From Arthrobacter sp. AFG20 (lineage in GTDB: Bacteria; Actinomycetota; Actinomycetes; Actinomycetales; Micrococcaceae), in assembly GCF_002892795.1 (NCBI RefSeq), contig NZ_PJMC01000016.1, positions 1 through 64,000 on the forward strand: DNA of 64,000 nt, read 5' to 3'. The notes beneath the pieces were generated by a model that was given only the letters and a program-made list of their open reading frames with translations, was not told the origin of the DNA and did no database searches. Shown here one piece after another: positions 33,510 to 42,713 of this stretch. The stretch's first letter is position 1. Every line of letters begins with the position of its first letter. The translations under genes were made by a program, and so were the position numbers.

Positions 33510-35099
33510 GTGACTACTCCCACTGCATCCCAGACTTCCCAGAAGCCGGTGCTGGTTGTTGACTACGGTGCCCAGTACGCGCAGCTGATTGCCCGCCGCG
33601 TCCGGGAAGCGAATGTGTATTCGGAAGTGGTTCCGCATACCCACAGCACTGAGCAGCTCCTGGCCAAGAACCCTGCCGCCATCATCCTCTCCGGCGGCCC
33701 CGCCAGCGTGTACGCGGATGGCGCCCCGAGCGTCGGTGCCGACCTTTTCGAGGCCGGCGTCCCGGTCTTCGGCATCTGCTACGGCTTCCAGGCCATGGCC
33801 AACGCCCTCGGCGGCAAGGTGGACAAGACCGGCCTGCGGGAGTACGGCTCCACCCAGACCACCATCCTGGGCGAAGGCCGTTCCGTCCTGGACGGAATGC
33901 CCCAGCACCAGAACACCTGGATGAGCCACGGTGACTCCGTCCACGAGGCTCCCGAGGGCTTCGAGGTGCTGGCCACTACGGCGGGTGCGGAAGTTGCCGC
34001 TTTCGCCAACGAGGAGAAGTGCCTGTACGGCGTGCAGTGGCACCCCGAGGTGAAGCACTCCGCCTACGGCCAGCAGGTGCTGGAAAACTTCCTCTTCAAG
34101 GGCGCCAAGCTGGAACCGAACTGGACCACGGGCAACATCCTTGAGGAGCAGGTGGATCGCATCCGGAAGCAGATCGGCGATGCCCGGGTTATCTGCGGCC
34201 TCTCCGGCGGTGTGGACTCGGCCGTTGCCGCAGCCCTCGTCCAGCGTGCCGTCGGTGACCAGCTGACCTGTGTCTTTGTCGATCACGGGCTGCTGCGCGA
34301 AGGAGAGGCCGAGCAGGTGGAGCGCGACTTCGTTGCCGCCACCGGCGTGAACCTCTACGTGGCCAACGAGCAGGAGCGGTTCCAGGCGGCGCTGGCAGGC
34401 GTCAGCGACCCTGAAACCAAGCGCAAAATCATCGGCCGCGAATTCATCAGGGCCTTCGAAGAGGCCGAGCGCGCGATCATCGCCGACGCCGCAGCGCACG
34501 GCGAAAAGATCAAGTTCCTCGTGCAGGGCACCCTGTACCCGGACGTCGTCGAATCCGGCGGCGGCGAGGGTGCAGCGAACATCAAGAGCCACCATAACGT
34601 GGGCGGCCTGCCGGAGGACCTGCAGTTCGAGCTCGTCGAGCCGCTGCGTGCCCTGTTCAAGGACGAGGTGCGTGCCGTGGGCGCCCAGCTCGGCCTGCCG
34701 CAGGAAATCGTCGGCCGCCAGCCCTTCCCCGGCCCCGGCCTGGGAATCCGCATCGTCGGCGAAGTCACCAAGGAGCGCCTGGACCTGCTGCGCAAGGCAG
34801 ACGCCATCGCCCGCGCTGAACTGACCGCTGCCGGACTCGACAACGACGTCTGGCAGATGCCCGTGGTGCTGCTCGCTGACGTCCGCAGCGTCGGCGTCCA
34901 GGGCGACGGCCGCACGTACGGCCACCCGATCGTGCTGCGCCCCGTCTCCTCCGAGGACGCCATGACGGCCGACTGGTCGCGGCTTCCGTACGACCTGCTG
35001 GCCCGGATCTCCAACCGGATCACCAATGAGGTGGACGGCGTCAACCGGGTGGTGCTCGACGTCACCAGCAAGCCGCCGGGAACCATCGAGTGGGAATAG
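33510..35099 (+). CDS. guaA: GMP synthase (glutamine-hydrolysing)
   Basis: A 529-residue enzyme that aminates XMP to GMP. The N-terminal class I glutaminase has its nucleophile Cys90 in GICYG and the His/Glu of [11 protein letters not shown]. The PP-loop SGGVDS is near 232. The C-terminal dimerisation domain ends in [13 protein letters not shown]. The GTG is 6 bases after a TAGGCT box. A strong terminator follows. With guaB it completes IMP to GMP. Confidence 0.97.
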
Positions 35100-35106
35100 C
35101 GTTGTG

Positions 35107-35142
35107 AAAATGGCCGGCCTCCGCAGGGAGGCCGGCCATTTT
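35107..35142 (+). terminator. guaA terminator
   Basis: A perfect 16-bp stem (35107-35122 with 35127-35142) closes a GCAG loop. The stem begins AAAATGG and ends CCATTTT, so it provides its own T-rich end. Confidence 0.9.
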
Positions 35143-35309
35143 GCATCCCCGGGTATCGCGTCCGGGACGGCCGCCAACTGTGCGAAATGCGCCGCAACTT
35201 GGACCGTCCCAGTGTTGCGGTCTCTCAACCGCGGCGGTTTCCGGCTACGCTCGAAACTATGCCCGTATGGTCCAAGGCGTCACGCGCAAGCACAGAAAAG
35301 AAGGCAGCA

Positions 35310-38300
35310 GTGTCAGTAGGTCAGGTCGACTCCGAGGGTTCGGAGGAGCTCAGGAAGTGGCTGTCCGGGCTCAAGCCCGTAACGGGGGCAGACACCATGC
35401 TGCGCTTCACCAAGACGCCCGAGGGTTCCATCGACCTCACGCACGCGCACCCTTCGGGCCTGGCGCAGCTCATGGCCGGGCGCCGCACGAGGCTTTCCAC
35501 GCTGATCCGTGACCAGCAGCAGTACGTCGTGGCTGCGCGGGCCTCCCGGAACCTGCGCTCCAAGATCTTCGAACTGGCCAATGACCGTGGCATAGAGGCC
35601 GGGTACTTCTCGGCCGGCACCGTGGTCTGGACCTCGGCCGTCGGGGGCAAACCGCAGCGCGTCTCGGCACCGGTGATGCTGACCGCCATGTCGCTCACCA
35701 TCCGCCCCGGGGAAGACGACTATGAACTGCAGCTCACGGAACAGGCGCGGATAAACCCGGCCCTGGTCCGCCACCTGAAAACCATCCACGGGATCGTGTT
35801 CGACGTCAACGCGGTGACACGGATGGCTTACAGCACCGCGCGGTTCGACCCCCTGCCCGTGCTGGACCGTATCAGCACCCTGGTCAAGCCGATCCACGGG
35901 GCCGACGTGGAGCACAACCTGCTCGTCTCCACCTTCGCGGACCTTTCCGGGAACCTCGACGATCCGTGGATCAACGGTCAGAACGAACTGGTGGCCTCGC
36001 TGGCCAAGACAGCGTCGGGCGAGATCGTCGACGTGCCCGCGCTCCAGCCCGGGCGCTTTCCCAGCGTGGACGAGCGGGACCCGGCGGAAGAGCTGCTGCT
36101 CCTCGACGCCGACGCCGACCAGCAGTATGTGATTGACGCCGTCCGTGCAGGGGACTCGCTGCTGGTGAGCAGCCCGCCCGGCACCGGCCAGACCCAGACG
36201 GCGATCAACACGATCGGTGCGCTCGTGGACGAAGGCAAGACCGTCCTGGTGGTGGGGGACCGGCGTGCCAGCCTCAGCGAGGTAGCCGGCCGCCTCGAGG
36301 ACCTGGGCCTGGACTCCATCCTTTTCCAGTTGTCCGGAAACGCAACGCCGCAGCAGCTCAAGGGCCAGTTGGTGCGCGCCATCGTGCGTAACGAGAAGGC
36401 CCAGGAGCCGCAGCTCGGCGGCCTGCACAAGACTCTCACCGAGCACCGCCATGCCCTCCTGGACCACGTTGCGTCGCTGCACAACGTCCGGCAGCGGTGG
36501 GGCTGCTCTCCCTACCAGGCGATGCAGTCGCTCGCGGAACTGACGTCCATCCAGCCCGCCCCGGCCACCACCGTCCGCCTGAAGCGCAGCGTCCTGGACA
36601 GCATCCGCGACCGCGAGGAGCTCGCCGGACGGCTGAAGCGCGCCGCCGAACTCGGTGCGTTCAGCAGGGCGTCGACCACCAGCCCCTGGCACGGTGCGCG
36701 GCTGGTCACGCGCAAGGAAACCGAGGAAGCGCAGGAGCTGGCACGTGCGGTGGCGAAAAAGCTGCCGCTGCTCCAGGAACGGATGAAGGACGTGGCCAGC
36801 CACGCAGAAATCCGCCTGGGCACCACCTTCGCTGAATGGGGCTCGCAGCTCAAGCTCCTGGTGGCCGTCCGCGAAAGCCTGGACAAGTTCACCCCCGATA
36901 TCTTTGACCGGCCCGTTACCGACCTGATTTCCGCGACGGCGTCCTCGTCCTGGCGCAGGGAGCGAGGCATCGACATGGCCTCGATGCAGCGGTCCCGCCT
37001 GCGGCGGGTGGCCAAGGAGTACGTCCGCCCGGGAGTCCATATCGCCGATCTGCACAGTTCGCTGGTGCTGGTCCAGGAACAGCGTGCCCAGTGGGCCGGA
37101 TACGCCACCACGCAGCGGCATCCAGCGGTGCCGTCCGGCCTGGCGGAGATCAGCATCATGCACCGCGGACTGACCCGCGAGATGAAGATGCTGGGCGATG
37201 CCCTGCGGCATACGGCCGCCGGCGGTTCGCTGGAAAACATTCCCTACCCGGAGCTCATGGAGCGACTGGAACGGCTGGTCGCGGACACGCAGACGCTGCA
37301 GACCTTGCCCGAGCGCACGCTGCTCATCGAGAACATGCGCGAGCACGGGCTGGGGGAGCTGCTGGCAGACCTCTCCGAACGCGAGGTCGGGGCCGGGTCC
37401 GTCGCGGCCGAACTTGACCTGGCCTGGTGGCAGTCGGCGCTCGAAGCGATGATCAGCGGAGACGACTACCTTGCCATGTCCGACGGAGACGCGCTGCGCC
37501 AGCTTGAGGCGGAGTACCGGCTCGCGGACAACGCGCACATCGCCAGCGGCGCCGGACGGTTGCGATGGAAGCTGGCCGAGCGCTGGCGCGCGGGCATCGA
37601 GGAGCATGCCCGCCAGGCGGACCTGCTCCGGAGCCTGCTCAAGGACGGCCGCGTCACGCTGGCTGCGCTGACGGCGCAGGCGCCCGGGCTGGTTCCCATG
37701 CTGGTACCCGTCTGGTCGGTCAGCCCTTACCTCATGACCGGGCTCCTCCCGGCCGAGCAGAAGTTTGACGCCGTGGTGATCCTGGATGCCGAGGCGACGT
37801 CGCTGCAGGCGGTGCTTCCGGCCGTCGCCCGCGCCCGGCAGGTGATCGCCTTCGGCGACGACAGGATCGCCAGCCCACGCACCTTTACGGTCGCGGTGGA
37901 GCGTCTTGCCGCCGGCGAACAGTCGCACCAGAGTGTCGAAAGCGCGTTCACCGCGCTTTCGGCCGTGCTGCCGACGGCGCCGCTGCGCTCCGTATACCGC
38001 GCTGTGGACGAGGACCTGGTGCTGCAGCTCAGCAAAAACTTCTACGACGGCGGCCTCCGCCGGCTGCCGGAGGGCCAGTCGGCCACCGGGCTGGACCGTG
38101 CGCTGACGGTGGAGTACCTGCCCGACGGCACCGGCCTGCCCAGCGCGGACCATGAGGGCGTCGAATCGGTGGTGGCCGAAGTCAACCGGGTGGTTGAACT
38201 CGTGTTCGAACACGCGCGGCTCCGGCCCCGGACCTCGCTGGCCGTGGTGACCGCTAGCCTCCGGCACGCGGCACGCATCGGCGAGTCCATCCGGCTGCAG

Positions 38301-39419
38301 CTGCCCAACCATCCCTCGCTGTCCGGGTTCTTCACGGCAGGTGAAGAATCCTTCAGGGTTGTGGACCTGGAACGCGCCCAGGGGCTGGTCCGCGATCGTG
38401 TGATCTTCTCGCCGGGCTACGGGCGGACGCCGCACGGCCGGGCCCTGCACAGCTTCGGTCCGCTGTCCGCCGAGGGCGGCCGGGCCAAGTTCGCGCTGGC
38501 CATGACCCGGGCACGGCAGTCGCTGCACGTACTGACGTGCTTCAAGCCGGAGGACCTTGACCGGACGCGGCTGGCCCACGGCGCCGTCGATCTCTTCGAA
38601 CTTCTGGACCGCGAGATCTCCGGCAACACCGATCTGGGGACTCCCGCATCCCGGGCAGCGGCAAGTGAACAGGCGCTGGGGGCCGATCCTCTGGTTGCAG
38701 ATCTCGGTGACCGGCTCCGGGCCCGGGGTGCCCGCGTATGGCACCAGTACGACGGCGCCATCGATGTGGTGGCCGCGGCGGACCCGCTCAGCACCATGGG
38801 CCAGGACGACGCCGACATTCCGCGGCCGGTTGCCATCGAATCGGACGGCACCGAGCAGTACCGGCAGATGACAGTCCGGGAACGCAGCCGGCTGCGGCCC
38901 CAGCTGCTGGAGCGGCTCGGCTGGCGGTACATGCCGCTGTGGACCATCGAGGTCTTCACCGATCCCTCGGCGTGCGCCGACAGGATCGGCGGATACCTCG
39001 GGCTTGAGAAGCCTTCGCCCTCGGTGCGCTCGGTTGGCGCACCGGGATTCTTCCTGGATGACGACGTCAGTACCCTCGCGGTGGGTGACCTCGAGCCAGA
39101 GCCGGGGCAGGAGACCGCGTACGAGAACTTGGATGACCGTTTCGGCGACGAGCTGAGCCGTGACGACGCGGACGAGTCGGACGCGGATCAGCGGAACGCG
39201 GCTTCGTCGGGCGCGGATCAGACCGGCACCGATCGGACCGACCGAGATCAGACTGACATGGACCAGCTTGAGATTGATCAGACCGGTCCCGATCACGTGG
39301 CCGTTGACCAGCCGGATCACGACACTTCCGGTTACGACGCCGCGGGCGCCGGAGTAGGCTTCGGTTCTGAGGCTAGCCCGGACGGGCCGGCCACGGAATG
39401 GAAGGAGGGCCCGCTGTGA
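35310..39419 (+). CDS. Very large SF1-helicase-like protein with C-terminal nuclease-like domain; degenerate ATPase motifs
   Basis: A 1369-residue protein. The middle resembles SF1 (DNA2/Upf1-like) helicases, but the P-loop reads PPGTGQTQT (Gln294 in place of the essential Lys) and the motif II position reads LDAEAT (825-830) instead of DEAS. A late MTRARQSL matches motif VI. The C-terminal ~170 residues fit an MTES_1575-type PD-(D/E)xK domain: YDGAIDVV (Asp1152), IESDGTEQY (Glu1177, Asp1179) and RPQLLERLGWRYMPLW. The last ~110 residues are acidic and DQ-rich. The GTG at 35310 follows AGAAGG; an ATG at 35259, 7 bases after TACGCT, is the main alternative and adds 17 residues. Confidence 0.72.
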   Translation: MSVGQVDSEGSEELRKWLSGLKPVTGADTMLRFTKTPEGSIDLTHAHPSGLAQLMAGRRTRLSTLIRDQQQYVVAARASRNLRSKIFELANDRGIEAGYFSAGTVVWTSAVGGKPQRVSAPVMLTAMSLTIRPGEDDYELQLTEQARINPALVRHLKTIHGIVFDVNAVTRMAYSTARFDPLPVLDRISTLVKPIHGADVEHNLLVSTFADLSGNLDDPWINGQNELVASLAKTASGEIVDVPALQPGRFPSVDERDPAEELLLLDADADQQYVIDAVRAGDSLLVSSPPGTGQTQTAINTIGALVDEGKTVLVVGDRRASLSEVAGRLEDLGLDSILFQLSGNATPQQLKGQLVRAIVRNEKAQEPQLGGLHKTLTEHRHALLDHVASLHNVRQRWGCSPYQAMQSLAELTSIQPAPATTVRLKRSVLDSIRDREELAGRLKRAAELGAFSRASTTSPWHGARLVTRKETEEAQELARAVAKKLPLLQERMKDVASHAEIRLGTTFAEWGSQLKLLVAVRESLDKFTPDIFDRPVTDLISATASSSWRRERGIDMASMQRSRLRRVAKEYVRPGVHIADLHSSLVLVQEQRAQWAGYATTQRHPAVPSGLAEISIMHRGLTREMKMLGDALRHTAAGGSLENIPYPELMERLERLVADTQTLQTLPERTLLIENMREHGLGELLADLSEREVGAGSVAAELDLAWWQSALEAMISGDDYLAMSDGDALRQLEAEYRLADNAHIASGAGRLRWKLAERWRAGIEEHARQADLLRSLLKDGRVTLAALTAQAPGLVPMLVPVWSVSPYLMTGLLPAEQKFDAVVILDAEATSLQAVLPAVARARQVIAFGDDRIASPRTFTVAVERLAAGEQSHQSVESAFTALSAVLPTAPLRSVYRAVDEDLVLQLSKNFYDGGLRRLPEGQSATGLDRALTVEYLPDGTGLPSADHEGVESVVAEVNRVVELVFEHARLRPRTSLAVVTASLRHAARIGESIRLQLPNHPSLSGFFTAGEESFRVVDLERAQGLVRDRVIFSPGYGRTPHGRALHSFGPLSAEGGRAKFALAMTRARQSLHVLTCFKPEDLDRTRLAHGAVDLFELLDREISGNTDLGTPASRAAASEQALGADPLVADLGDRLRARGARVWHQYDGAIDVVAAADPLSTMGQDDADIPRPVAIESDGTEQYRQMTVRERSRLRPQLLERLGWRYMPLWTIEVFTDPSACADRIGGYLGLEKPSPSVRSVGAPGFFLDDDVSTLAVGDLEPEPGQETAYENLDDRFGDELSRDDADESDADQRNAASSGADQTGTDRTDRDQTDMDQLEIDQTGPDHVAVDQPDHDTSGYDAAGAGVGFGSEASPDGPATEWKEGPL
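39160..39330 (+). repeat. Degenerate GATCAG-rich repeat coding an Asp/Gln tail
   Basis: Imperfect units such as GATCAGACC and GACCAG recur, encoding DQTGTDRTDRDQTDMDQ and similar stretches at the end of the large protein. The variable unit length and the in-frame nature suggest slippage or expansion in a disordered tail. Confidence 0.6.
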
Positions 39420-39649
39420 CATCCGCCGGCGGGGCTGAACGCAAGGACGGGACCGAGGGCAAGGATGTGCAAGCCACGGCGGGGGAGAAGCCCGCACGGG
39501 TGCGCCCCAGCAAAAGCCGCGGACAGCAGCGGACAGGCGTGGTCCCCAAAAGGGCTGCCGAGGACGATCCGCGCACCTGGGGCGATGCAGAATCCGGCAA
39601 CGACCACGACGCTTGGCTGAAAGAGCAGAAGCCCCCGCACTGGGGCTGA
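39416..39649 (+). CDS. 77-aa protein coupled to the helicase-like gene
   Basis: The GTG start overlaps the upstream TGA (GTGA), and AAGGAGG sits 8 bases before it. The first 50 residues are basic and disordered (KPARVRPSKSRGQQR, VPKRAAE). The C-terminus DDPRTWGDAE, then NDHDAWLKEQKPPHWG, is a recognisable short motif at the ends of several actinobacterial small proteins. No enzymatic fold is present. Coupling to the large protein suggests a partner or regulator in 1:1 supply. Confidence 0.7.
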   Translation: MTSAGGAERKDGTEGKDVQATAGEKPARVRPSKSRGQQRTGVVPKRAAEDDPRTWGDAESGNDHDAWLKEQKPPHWG

Positions 39650-39721
39650 GCAATCGGGCAAACATACCGCGGATTCGTGCGGAGCCAAGGCTCCTGGGGC
39701 CGAGGATGCGCACTGGGAGGC

Positions 39722-40468
39722 TCACCGGGCGCCAGACCGCACGAGCACGAAAAACAGCTTTCCCTGGGTTGACGCGCCCGCCAGGGCACTGGCCTGCGCA
39801 GGGGTGGCGGCCACGACCAGGAGCCCGTCCGAATCCCCGGCAGCAAGCCACTGGCCGCTTTGGGCTTCCTGACCGGAGGTCCACAGGACCGGCACTGACT
39901 TGGCGAGTACCTTCGAGGCAGATGCCTGCTCATAGCCGTTGCCGCTTGTCAGGACCACGTTCACGAGTTGTCCGGGAGATACCAGCTGGATGGATGACGG
40001 GTCCGCCATCCGCAGCGGCACTGCAGCGGACCCGGGCGGCGCTCCCGTCAGCAGGCCTGGACCCACCAGTTGAGCATCGGTGAGGAGCTGGCCCTTGCGG
40101 AGCGGCGCTGCCAGCTGCTTGCCGTCCGCTCTGGAGCTATCAGCGAAGGTCCCGTCCGGCACCATGGCCGGCGGAACGCTGACGGTCTTGACATCACTGC
40201 CGTTGAGGTTTGCCCCGGCCGGAAGGTCACGGGCGGCGGCCAGGACGCTCACAGTCCGGGCAGGGGCAGGAGTCAGCTGGTGAACGGCGATCCCCGCGGC
40301 CGCGCAGAGGAGCAGTGCCACGGCAAGGCGCCGGTTACGGTTCAGCCATCCCGCAAAGCGCCGTCGGCGGGGACGCGGACGGGCGGCGGAACCAGGCAGT
40401 GCGTTGCGGCGCCCGGGACGAACGGCCGGGCGGCCTGCCCTGGCGGGGAAAACTCCGGTAGCTGGCAT
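39722..40468 (-). CDS. SAF domain protein, CpaB/RcpC-like
   Basis: A 248-residue protein with an Arg-rich cytoplasmic lead, one membrane helix (about 47-65, RLAVALLLCAAAGIAVHQL), then an SAF domain (VSVLAAARDLPAGANLNGSDV, PLRKGQLLTDAQL). The family includes the Flp-pilus assembly protein CpaB. No tad/flp pilus genes are in the window, so the link to pili is unproven. It is convergent with the 77-aa gene. The first codon is ATG at 40468. Confidence 0.78.
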   Translation of the reverse strand: MPATGVFPARAGRPAVRPGRRNALPGSAARPRPRRRRFAGWLNRNRRLAVALLLCAAAGIAVHQLTPAPARTVSVLAAARDLPAGANLNGSDVKTVSVPPAMVPDGTFADSSRADGKQLAAPLRKGQLLTDAQLVGPGLLTGAPPGSAAVPLRMADPSSIQLVSPGQLVNVVLTSGNGYEQASASKVLAKSVPVLWTSGQEAQSGQWLAAGDSDGLLVVAATPAQASALAGASTQGKLFFVLVRSGAR

Positions 40469-41091: not shown

Positions 41092-41109
41092 ACCCCGCCC
41101 GGGCGGGGT
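41092..41109 (-). terminator. Hairpin at the end of the 5-FCL gene
   Basis: ACCCCGCCCGGGCGGGGT is a perfect 18-bp palindrome that starts at the last base of the 5-FCL stop codon. It may act as a terminator or processing hairpin before the fmdB-type gene. Confidence 0.5.
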
Positions 41110-41720
41110 CACGCGAAGGCTACCAGCCCGGAGGGCGTGAGTACTGCTTCGACGGGGCGGTCGAAGTCTTCAGCCGGAATGGTCTGTGCGGGCAGGAGTT
41201 CGGAGTCGTAGATGATGGCGGCCTTCGGAAGGTGCAGGCCGCCGGCGTTGGCTGCGGCCAGGAACTTGTCGTAGTAGCCGCCGCCCTGCCCGATCCTGTT
41301 GCCGCTGCGGTCCACGGCCGTCGCCGGCATGAACATCCCGGCCGCAGTCCGCACCGTGTCCAGGCCGTGGCGCTCACCGGCCGGCTCCTGGATGGGCGCA
41401 TACCGGCTGCGGACGAACTCGCTGTCCGGCGTCCAGAAGACCCAGCTGAGCTCGCGGTCAGGCTCGCAGACCGGGAGCAGGATACTGTGGCCGGCCTCAT
41501 GCAGGGCGTGCAGCAGGGGAAGGGTGGGCGGTTCGAAATCGACGCCGAGGTAGGCGGTGAACGTGGCCGGGTTGCCCGCAGCGATGGACTCGGCCCAGGG
41601 CAGGCCATGGGAGGCGATGCCGTCGCCGGCACTGGAGAGGTCCGCCGCCGTCATCGTGGCCCGGAGTTGCCGGTGCCGGGAGCGGATAACGTCCTTCGAA
41701 GGCATGGTCCCTGTTGGCAT
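41109..41720 (-). CDS. 5-formyltetrahydrofolate cyclo-ligase
   Basis: A 203-residue enzyme that converts 5-formyl-THF to 5,10-methenyl-THF with ATP, recycling the inhibitory folate. N-terminal basic KDVIRSRHRQLR and the C-terminal GQGGGYYDKFLA loop are diagnostic. The ATG at 41718-41720 follows AAAGGAAA; the longer frame to 41771 is rejected. It diverges from galU across 87 bp, the same arrangement as in mycobacteria (Rv0992c/galU). Confidence 0.93.
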   Translation of the reverse strand: MPTGTMPSKDVIRSRHRQLRATMTAADLSSAGDGIASHGLPWAESIAAGNPATFTAYLGVDFEPPTLPLLHALHEAGHSILLPVCEPDRELSWVFWTPDSEFVRSRYAPIQEPAGERHGLDTVRTAAGMFMPATAVDRSGNRIGQGGGYYDKFLAAANAGGLHLPKAAIIYDSELLPAQTIPAEDFDRPVEAVLTPSGLVAFA

Positions 41721-41795
41721 GGGTGTTTTCCTTTGTCGCAGCGGCAGCGGCCGGGCCTCTGCCGGAAGCATTTACCGTATGAATGTTCCCTCGGA

Positions 41796-41807: not shown

Positions 41808-42713
41808 GTGACTTCCACTAATTGTTCAGTCCGCAAGGCCGTAATCCCCGCTGCCGGGCTCGGCACCAGGTTCCTGCCAGCCACCAAGGCCATGCCTAAG
41901 GAGATGCTGCCGGTGGTTGACAAGCCGGCCATCCAGTACGTCGTTGAGGAGGCCGTCAAGGTCGGCCTGAGCGACGTCCTGATGATCACCGGCCGCAACA
42001 AGCGCGCGCTCGAGGACCACTTCGACCGCGTTCCGACACTGGAAGCGACGCTGGAGGCCAAGGGCGACACCGCCAAGCTGGAGTCGATCCAGGCCGCGAG
42101 CAACCTGGGCGACATCCACTACGTCCGCCAGGGTGACCCCAAGGGCCTTGGCCACGCGGTGTTGCGCGCACGCCAGCACGTGGGCCATGAGCCGTTTGCC
42201 GTTCTCCTCGGCGACGACCTCATCGATGCCCGCGACGATCTCCTCAGCATCATGATCGACGTGCAGGCGAAGACCGGCGGTTCGGTCGTGGCCCTCATCG
42301 AGGTGGAACCGTCCCAGATCAGTGCCTACGGGTGTGCGGATATCTCGGAGATTGACGGCGAAGGCTTCGTTAAGATCAACAAGCTGGTGGAGAAGCCGGA
42401 CGTCGACGACGCGCCCTCCAACCTGGCCGTCATCGGCCGCTATGTGCTCCACCCCGATGTCTTCGACGTGCTGGAAAAGACCGAACCCGGCCGCGGCGGC
42501 GAAATCCAGCTGACGGACGCCCTGCAGGAACTGGCCAGCAGGGACGGTGAAGGCGGCGGCGTGTACGGCGTGATCTTCCGCGGCCGCCGTTACGACACCG
42601 GGGACAAGCTCAGCTACCTCAAGGCCTGCGTCGAGCTCGCCATCGACAGCGACGACCTCGGACCAGGTCTGCGTGCCTGGCTTCCGCAAATTGCCGCCCG
42701 TTTGTCCGAGTAA
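41808..42713 (+). CDS. galU: UTP--glucose-1-phosphate uridylyltransferase
   Basis: A 301-residue enzyme that makes UDP-glucose for envelope glycans and trehalose. The nucleotide loop AAGLGTRFLPATKAMPKEM (15-33), VDKPAIQYVVEEA, and the C-terminal FRGRRYDTGDKLSYLKA are canonical. The next gene begins 6 bases after its stop, so they are in one operon. Confidence 0.96.
   Translation: MTSTNCSVRKAVIPAAGLGTRFLPATKAMPKEMLPVVDKPAIQYVVEEAVKVGLSDVLMITGRNKRALEDHFDRVPTLEATLEAKGDTAKLESIQAASNLGDIHYVRQGDPKGLGHAVLRARQHVGHEPFAVLLGDDLIDARDDLLSIMIDVQAKTGGSVVALIEVEPSQISAYGCADISEIDGEGFVKINKLVEKPDVDDAPSNLAVIGRYVLHPDVFDVLEKTEPGRGGEIQLTDALQELASRDGEGGGVYGVIFRGRRYDTGDKLSYLKACVELAIDSDDLGPGLRAWLPQIAARLSE

Follow-up and report, generated by a model that had tools for sequence, protein, structure and literature searches.

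The closest described relatives of the gene reported here are Hhe, a DUF4011-type anti-phage protein that corresponds to 'Gao Hhe' in the excerpted text of PMC11291487, and the ProA/PDC-S37 proteins, which give the strongest family matches and have an N-terminal domain, a superfamily 1 (SF1) helicase and a restriction endonuclease-like (REase) region in common with it. MTES_1575 carries a REase of the same family, likewise fused to an SF1 helicase, and differs in its additional HEPN, transglutaminase and winged helix-turn-helix domains (PMC3710099, excerpt). RecC and AddB offer a further precedent, with SF1 folds that lack catalytic motifs and that recognize or scan single-stranded DNA (ssDNA) in helicase–nuclease complexes (PMC4824097, excerpt). 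Here we describe gene P0001 in a 64,000-nucleotide stretch of Arthrobacter sp. AFG20 (contig NZ_PJMC01000016.1, positions 1 to 64,000), called the window throughout. Judged by its residues, its product is an ATPase-dead helicase with an incomplete nuclease site, and the gene is fixed, under selection and at an ancestral locus. By analogy to RecC/AddB, we give about even weight to the reading that it is a domesticated, catalytically dead DUF4011-type SF1B helicase with a Vsr-like nuclease, acting as an ATP-independent nucleic-acid clamp or scanner. Its features are as follows.

35259..39419, + strand: gene P0001, ATG start, 1386 residues (alternative start GTG 35310)
35346..36068, + strand: N-terminal domain, residues 30-270, DUF4011-like by Pfam scans of relatives
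36180..36200, + strand: degenerate Walker A GTGQTQT, residues 308-314, Lys replaced by Gln311 (alignments)
36459..37628, + strand: helical insert, residues 401-790, well conserved (alignment and model)
37764..37799, + strand: degenerate Walker B FDAVVILDAEAT, residues 836-847, where the relatives' DE corresponds to L842-D843 (alignments)
37854..37859, + strand: motif III, Gly866-Asp867 (147 of 147 family rows)
37995..38000, + strand: motif IV, Tyr913-Arg914 (Arg in 147 and Tyr in 137 of 147 family rows)
38502..38525, + strand: motif VI, MTRARQSL, residues 1082-1089 (Arg1084 in 145 and Arg1086 in 147 of 147 family rows)
38676..39008, + strand: MTES_1575/Vsr-like REase domain, residues 1140-1250, active site incomplete (PF18741, model, fold matches and residues)
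39009..39416, + strand: acidic C-terminal tail, residues 1251-1386, variable and weakly constrained (dN/dS and composition)

Residues are numbered from the ATG at 35259; positions in the initial annotation, which began the same frame at GTG 35310 and correctly counted 1369 residues, become ours on adding 17. The motifs it named start at residues 308 (GTGQT), 843 (DAEAT), 1082 (MTRARQSL), 1168 (IDVV) and 1193 (IESDG), and all of them are present in the translated frame.

Membership in the DUF4011/Hhe/ProA superfamily is by homology, at scores below the curated cut-offs. The protein matches PADLOC PDC-S37 (E 1.6e-108, 362 bits), NCBIfam ProA (NF058533; E 4.8e-104, 349.2 bits against a curated cut-off of 1500) and NCBIfam Hhe (NF042953; E 6.8e-47, 159.7 bits against 2000); ATPase-intact relatives from two other families, f17 and f45, score 778 and 846 against ProA, likewise below its cut-off. 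A Pfam scan of the window protein gave no DUF4011 match, AAA_11 at 18 bits (cut-off 27) and two poorer matches; DUF4011 exceeded its Pfam cut-off in three of five scanned relatives (L170, L175 and L138). Compared with ProA/PDC-S37, the window protein is shorter than the 1903-position profile, has lost Walker A and B, and is a core gene at a fixed locus. The Walker A lysine and Walker B DE pair of the Hhe/ProA type are replaced by Q311 and L842-D843, whereas eight long homologues at other loci (1690-2433 residues, not scanned against the Hhe model) keep GKS and DE in 8/8. The locus had been proposed as an undescribed system; the superfamily is in fact known, as Hhe, ProA and PDC-S37, and our literature searches turned up no description of its dead core branch.

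We counted residues in 202 rows, from 227 loci with an open reading frame, after removing L200-L207 (partial), L066 (broken frame), L075 (contig end) and 15 duplicates. Families are labelled by code, f1 being the window's own. Its 147 family rows are best matches (the best 80 of 187, plus 30 loci from each of two draws) and so are weighted to close relatives; the genus group of 108 rows comprises the window, 76 loci titled Arthrobacter, Pseudarthrobacter or Paenarthrobacter, and 31 loci from same-genus genomes. Contigs named Arthrobacter carry orthologues 96% identical to the window protein. The P-loop glutamine noted earlier as Gln294 is our Q311, and the suggested alignment of orthologues bears it out: Q311 is present in 108/108 genus-group rows and K311 is absent from 147/147 family rows (Q in 138), so a sequencing error is not the explanation. 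Across all rows K311 is present in 12/202, namely f5 2/2, f17 9/11 and f45 1/1, and absent in 190/202. In its database record the Actinomyces oris orthologue is called 'DNA helicase', although both the Walker lysine and the DE pair are missing from it.

For motif II, DAEAT had been read in place of DEAS. The letters are there; the register is not, and the pairing was rejected, since the families that we read agree with a register without gaps, anchored on F836-D837. It places D842-E843-A-S of intact relatives over L842-D843-A-E of the window, so that the magnesium-binding Asp is Leu here and the catalytic Glu is Asp. Intermediates support this register, with DDAS/DDAG in f15 and EDAA/EDAG in f38. 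Position 842 is L, I or V in the genus group and D843 is kept in 108/108. In f38, a family outside the order, all six rows (L177 and L217-L221) have K311 changed to Arg and DE to ED or DD, with block markers of the shared locus downstream.

Two families at the shared site, f5 and f17, keep GKS/GKT and DEAS, so an active helicase died in place, probably several times. The trees are quick ones with Shimodaira–Hasegawa-like approximate likelihood ratio (SH-aLRT) support only, built on columns without the motifs; alignment A1 comprises 107/202 rows and alignment A2 75 rows including 8 outgroup homologues. Both trees place the intact f5/f17 rows beside the large dead clade (SH-aLRT 100 and 99). The fewest K311 state changes are three in one tree, where two long branches (L168 and L198) meet and one arrangement implies regain, and four in the other, where branching among f25, f38, f5/f17 and the large dead clade is not resolved. 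We read these changes as about four losses; parsimony alone is compatible with regain. The trees favour an active ancestor, as do the long homologues elsewhere, all eight of which keep K and DE. Since intact orthologues occur in other families of the order, activity appears to have been lost in ancestors. On this alignment evidence the loss of the Walker motifs is a fixed state and not a decaying allele: other families of the order do have the intact orthologues that had been named as the sign of such an allele, and within the family K311 is found in 0/147. Within f17, nine sampled members are intact and the remaining two (L216 and L227) are ATPase-dead; these two adjoin MscL and are probably independent losses. 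Family f3 is probably Actinomycetaceae, since one of its rows shares 65% identity with the A. oris orthologue.

Selection was estimated as the ratio of nonsynonymous to synonymous substitution rates (dN/dS), comparing the window with 13 genus-group rows. The core (residues 30-1250) gave 0.018-0.110 and the REase domain 0.000-0.060 in the 13 comparisons (0.014-0.060 in L004-L008, L020 and L026); the tail (residues 1255-1386) gave 0.358-0.726 in 11/13, the other two being saturated. Together with the fixed loss, this low ratio upholds the proposal of a pseudo-helicase maintained by selection. A relic kept by chance is very improbable. It would fit the lost catalytic residues, the weakly constrained acidic tail, the broken frame of L066 and the single stop in the matched span of five printed rows (G053, G086, G096, G215 and G265; L075 merely ends with its contig). 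Against it are long stop-free frames in the great majority of printed genus- and family-draw rows, the core dN/dS and near-universal presence, and on prevalence, open frames and core dN/dS we rejected a decaying allele or pseudogene. A frameshift or sequencing error interrupts the frame of L066 (AP014718.1, Arthrobacter sp. Hiyo4) at about residue 1144.

Conservation is uneven along the protein. Among residues invariant in ten intact proteins (L214 and L215 left out), the family has retained 39/47 of those in the insert, 22/27 of those in the REase domain, 32/51 in the N-domain, 32/49 in RecA1, 46/78 in RecA2 and, fewest, 18/37 in the region of motifs II-III. Near-invariant columns in 30 family rows make up 43/390 (11.0%) of the insert and 12/111 (10.8%) of the REase domain, against 4.6-7.7% of other folded regions. 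In these alignments the ATP site is eroded while the insert and REase are retained.

Structure prediction, another check proposed at the outset, gave a UPF1/Dna2-like helicase and a Vsr-like REase fold. The AlphaFold2 (AF2) model of residues 44-1243 (1200 residues) has a predicted local distance difference score (pLDDT) of 90.5 and a predicted template-modelling score (pTM) of 0.80; the insert at 401-790 is mostly helical. The model matches Dna2 at Z 20.5 (root-mean-square deviation (rmsd) 4.8, 475 aligned), Ighmbp2 at 20.4, UPF1 at 19.4 and senataxin at 19.2, the listed UPF1, Dna2 and Ighmbp2 chains spanning Z 17.2-20.5; UvrD chains reach Z 17.3, and matches in a viral fold library are SF1-type helicases and polyproteins. 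The predicted fold is thus SF1B, without the residues that hydrolyse ATP. Unlike Dna2, UPF1 and IGHMBP2, the window protein combines this absence with the large helical insert and is a bacterial core gene. The presence of Ighmbp2, UPF1, senataxin and Aquarius among the best structural neighbours, and of tRNA-splicing endonucleases lower in the REase fold list, would suit a UPF1/IGHMBP2-like housekeeping factor bound to RNA, ribosomes or RNA polymerase. We think such a role rather unlikely: these matches reflect a shared SF1B fold that includes Dna2, which has the top Z, tied with Ighmbp2, and a fold shows no substrate; moreover, the fused REase resembles Vsr and Holliday-junction resolvases, which are DNA enzymes.

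The REase region scores 32 bits against PF18741 (MTES_1575 REase), below the gathering score of 38.2; among five relatives L170 (69.8), L175 (118.7) and L166 (43.8) pass and L195 (23.3) and L138 (19.9) fail. Modelled alone by AF2 (pLDDT 89.9), the domain matches NGO0050 at Z 8.8 (rmsd 2.2, 85 aligned), I-Bth0305I at 8.5, Hjc at 8.0 and Vsr at 7.3, moderate support for a predicted Vsr-like fold; Foldseek alone found no match to this model at E ≤ 0.001. Active-site equivalences rest on alignment. At the six positions that we take, by alignment and by comparison with Vsr/EDxHD enzymes, to be catalytic, the window has V1146, D1169, E1194, D1196, Y1201 and S1210, with 3/6 kept. E1146, D1169, E1194, D1196 and D1210 occur together in f45 and in 4/8 outgroup proteins; f45 and three of these outgroup proteins also have H1201. 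E1194 and H1201 are missing from the remaining four outgroup proteins. A2 includes ten f5/f17 rows, of which 10/10 have lost E1146 and H1201, 10/10 keep D1169 and D1210, and 9/10 keep E1194. Because these ATPase-intact rows already lack E1146 and H1201, nuclease damage at the shared locus appears to predate the ATPase loss.

The nuclease function suggested in the initial annotation is not supported by these residues. It would survive in a nuclease gated by nucleotide or nucleic acid, whose dead ATPase leaves a pseudo-helicase that only positions substrate while D1169, E1194 and D1196 still cut. The low REase dN/dS and the matches to NGO0050, I-Bth0305I and Vsr would agree with this, as would E1194 and D1196 in 108/108 and D1169 in 93/108 genus-group rows, D1196 being invariant in both A1 and A2. 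We nevertheless judge it unlikely, given V, Y and S at three of six positions, Asn at D1169 in 15/108 genus-group rows, loss of E1194 in 18/39 other family rows, and Pro at D1169 in sampled f3, f4, f8, f9 and f13 rows where the gene is kept nonetheless.

The gene is almost universal. At E ≤ 0.001, in genus, family and order draws that overlap, a match was found in 197/198 same-genus genomes (the sole miss is 63% complete), 245/245 genomes of the family draw and 243/248 of the order draw, including 231/233 genomes with completeness of 90% or more and contamination of 5% or less. The matches are mostly very strong, with a few weak or partial ones (for example G267, E 1.6e-6; G452, E 1.1e-16), and a weak match need not be the same orthologue. 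Three small f4 genomes (0.8, 0.9 and 1.1 Mb; completeness 99-100) retain frames of 1205, 1221 and 1289 residues. A RecN search of six genomes found no match in the two smallest and matches in the other four; those two, G474 and G592 (0.8-0.9 Mb, rated 99-100% complete), keep the pseudo-helicase. A profile search of the class draw (E ≤ 1e-30), which includes genomes of the order, matched 67/296 genomes; rows spanning nearly the full profile belong to the order, f38, f25, f45 and, with a single genome (G883), f36, and the remaining rows are partial matches, many inside longer frames.

A phage search returned one record (46% covered, 22% identity). A plasmid search returned 328 records, all below 60% identity, three having one place that covers at least 80% of the query. 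The best of ten listed is an A. oris 'plasmid' with the same block as chromosomal loci; of the other nine listed, six are annotated DUF4011 or DUF3320. That 415-kb replicon (L236, NZ_CP116225.1 373028-392174), carrying the pseudo-helicase, mscL, SAF and 5-formyltetrahydrofolate cyclo-ligase (5-FCL) block, may be a chromosome piece or second replicon. One contig titled Acidobacteria bacterium (L076, JABBNV010000041.1, a metagenome bin) has an orthologue 68% identical, with the identity figures of L127 (f1), and looks like a mis-binned contig.

Unlike a defence gene of patchy distribution, this one occurs in almost every genome examined, mostly at a single locus, and persists in reduced genomes, which makes the genome-defence role proposed earlier doubtful. 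The protein may act in DNA repair, the other role suggested there. A phage-defence or genome-integrity protein turned core gene, sensing foreign or damaged nucleic acid by binding and signalling via a putative effector, would be in keeping with the homology to Hhe, ProA and PDC-S37, and a DUF4011 gene is reported to flank, as a core gene, the defence hotspot cDHS1 in all P. aeruginosa isolates (PMC10250203, excerpt). Near-universal presence mostly at one locus, low dN/dS, retention in 0.8-0.9 Mb genomes, the single phage record and plasmid matches whose best carries the chromosomal block all speak against it, and we hold it to be distinctly unlikely. Because of near-universal presence, the shared locus and purifying selection, defence is less likely than housekeeping.

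The neighbourhood is itself conserved. In the window the flanking features are:

33510..35099, + strand: guaA, usual upstream neighbour in the family (locus comparison)
35110..35142, + strand: G+C-rich hairpin followed by TTTT, between guaA and the gene (sequence reading)
39722..40468, - strand: SAF-domain gene, first of a conserved convergent downstream block (locus comparison; product name as in the A. oris record)
41109..41771, - strand: 5-FCL, conserved downstream block (locus comparison; product name as in the A. oris record)
41808..42713, + strand: galU-like gene, downstream in part of the families (name read from the sequence, no family search)

The usual family order is guaA, the gene, convergent SAF and 5-FCL genes, and often then galU and an acetyltransferase; in the family loci compared (one in ten below L126 and each locus from L126 up) guaA was not found at L139 and L179. 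In A. oris the order is 'DNA helicase', a small hypothetical gene, mscL, SAF and 5-FCL; MscL occurs at loci of other families and is absent from the listed f1 loci. Clustering of genes at 60 representative loci placed at least two of MscL, SAF, FmdB and 5-FCL downstream in 48/60. At the ATPase-intact f5/f17 loci MscL adjoins in 11/11 and at least two markers are present in 9/11 (L208 and L211 have one each). The intact f45 locus L175, which has no markers, may be a different locus. The hairpin is conserved in aligned loci and suggests transcription separate from guaA; a scan requiring at least five T did not list it. With this conserved gene neighbourhood, a mobile defence island was rejected for the present locus. 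An operon partner was also considered: none was recognised, most downstream block genes being convergent and the hairpin separating guaA, and no helicase or nuclease partner was recognised among conserved neighbours (partners encoded elsewhere were not searched for).

For the clamp or scanner that we favour, an ATPase-competent ancestor would have taken up a single chromosomal position before the divergence of most families in the order, with a nuclease site seemingly damaged already at that shared locus, and the ATPase would then have been lost in most sampled lineages, the whole window family included. The UPF1/Dna2-like channel, helical insert and REase surface could, with no turnover of ATP, hold ssDNA, RNA or a partner bound to either, in parallel to the inactivated helicase domains of RecC/AddB that scan for Chi. 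It would then serve a housekeeping process on nucleic acid as a static clamp, scanner or scaffold and would not be a defence enzyme. The fuller history, in which a defence-type helicase–nuclease was domesticated before the order's radiation, lost its nuclease and then its ATPase, and is now a near-universal, possibly essential ATP-independent clamp, we put forward only tentatively.

Several observations weigh against this reading. RecC/AddB and the window protein have in common an SF1 fold lacking catalytic motifs (III, IV and VI being partly kept in the window); however, RecC/AddB domains are UvrD-like and act in complexes with active subunits, and the window protein best matches UPF1/Dna2-like chains. 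Intact forms have further motif residues, Q870 and E1044, that are lost here, and this may weaken the idea of a RecC-like channel. Residual ATP use is conceivable in f38, where the lysine became Arg, and the persistence of D1169, E1194 and D1196 in most genus-group rows makes weak or altered nuclease activity possible. Outside the order the gene is patchy, some of the class matches being longer homologues only. All four markers are missing at four of the 60 representative loci (L138, L165, L175 and L176), L138 still having the acetyltransferase, and no neighbour is functionally linked: guaA, mscL, SAF and a folate enzyme suggest positional inheritance and not a pathway.

A protein of more than 1200 residues in nearly all sampled genomes of a large order, under strong selection, marks a gap in core bacterial biology. 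The occurrence of intact and dead orthologues at one locus (nine intact and two dead rows in f17) provides a natural experiment in the change from defence-superfamily enzyme to housekeeping pseudo-enzyme. If the tentative history holds, the protein would represent a new class of core pseudo-enzyme, devoted to chromosome or RNA maintenance, that still has active cousins at its locus.

The first ATG of the open + strand frame is at 35187, and the frame's stop codon runs to 39419. Two starts are candidates, ATG 35259 (1386 residues) and GTG 35310 (1369 residues). Many listed orthologue matches begin at residue 1 in the 1386-residue numbering; the GTG has the following upstream feature, whose GAAGG stretch is conserved in seven aligned loci.

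35300..35312, + strand: GAAGG ribosome-binding-like sequence, 5 nucleotides before GTG 35310 (sequence reading)

A sigma-70 scan of 35000-40000 gave no match. A largely conserved TACGCT (TAnnnT-like -10) lies at 35246-35251, just upstream of ATG 35259; as a -10 element it would imply a leaderless start at that ATG or a leader of about 50 nucleotides to GTG 35310. DNA-level tandem repeats were absent from 38900-39500 at score 30. The C-terminal tail varies from 7 to 259 residues in the 147 family rows, with a median net charge of about -15 and repeated D-Q-T words.

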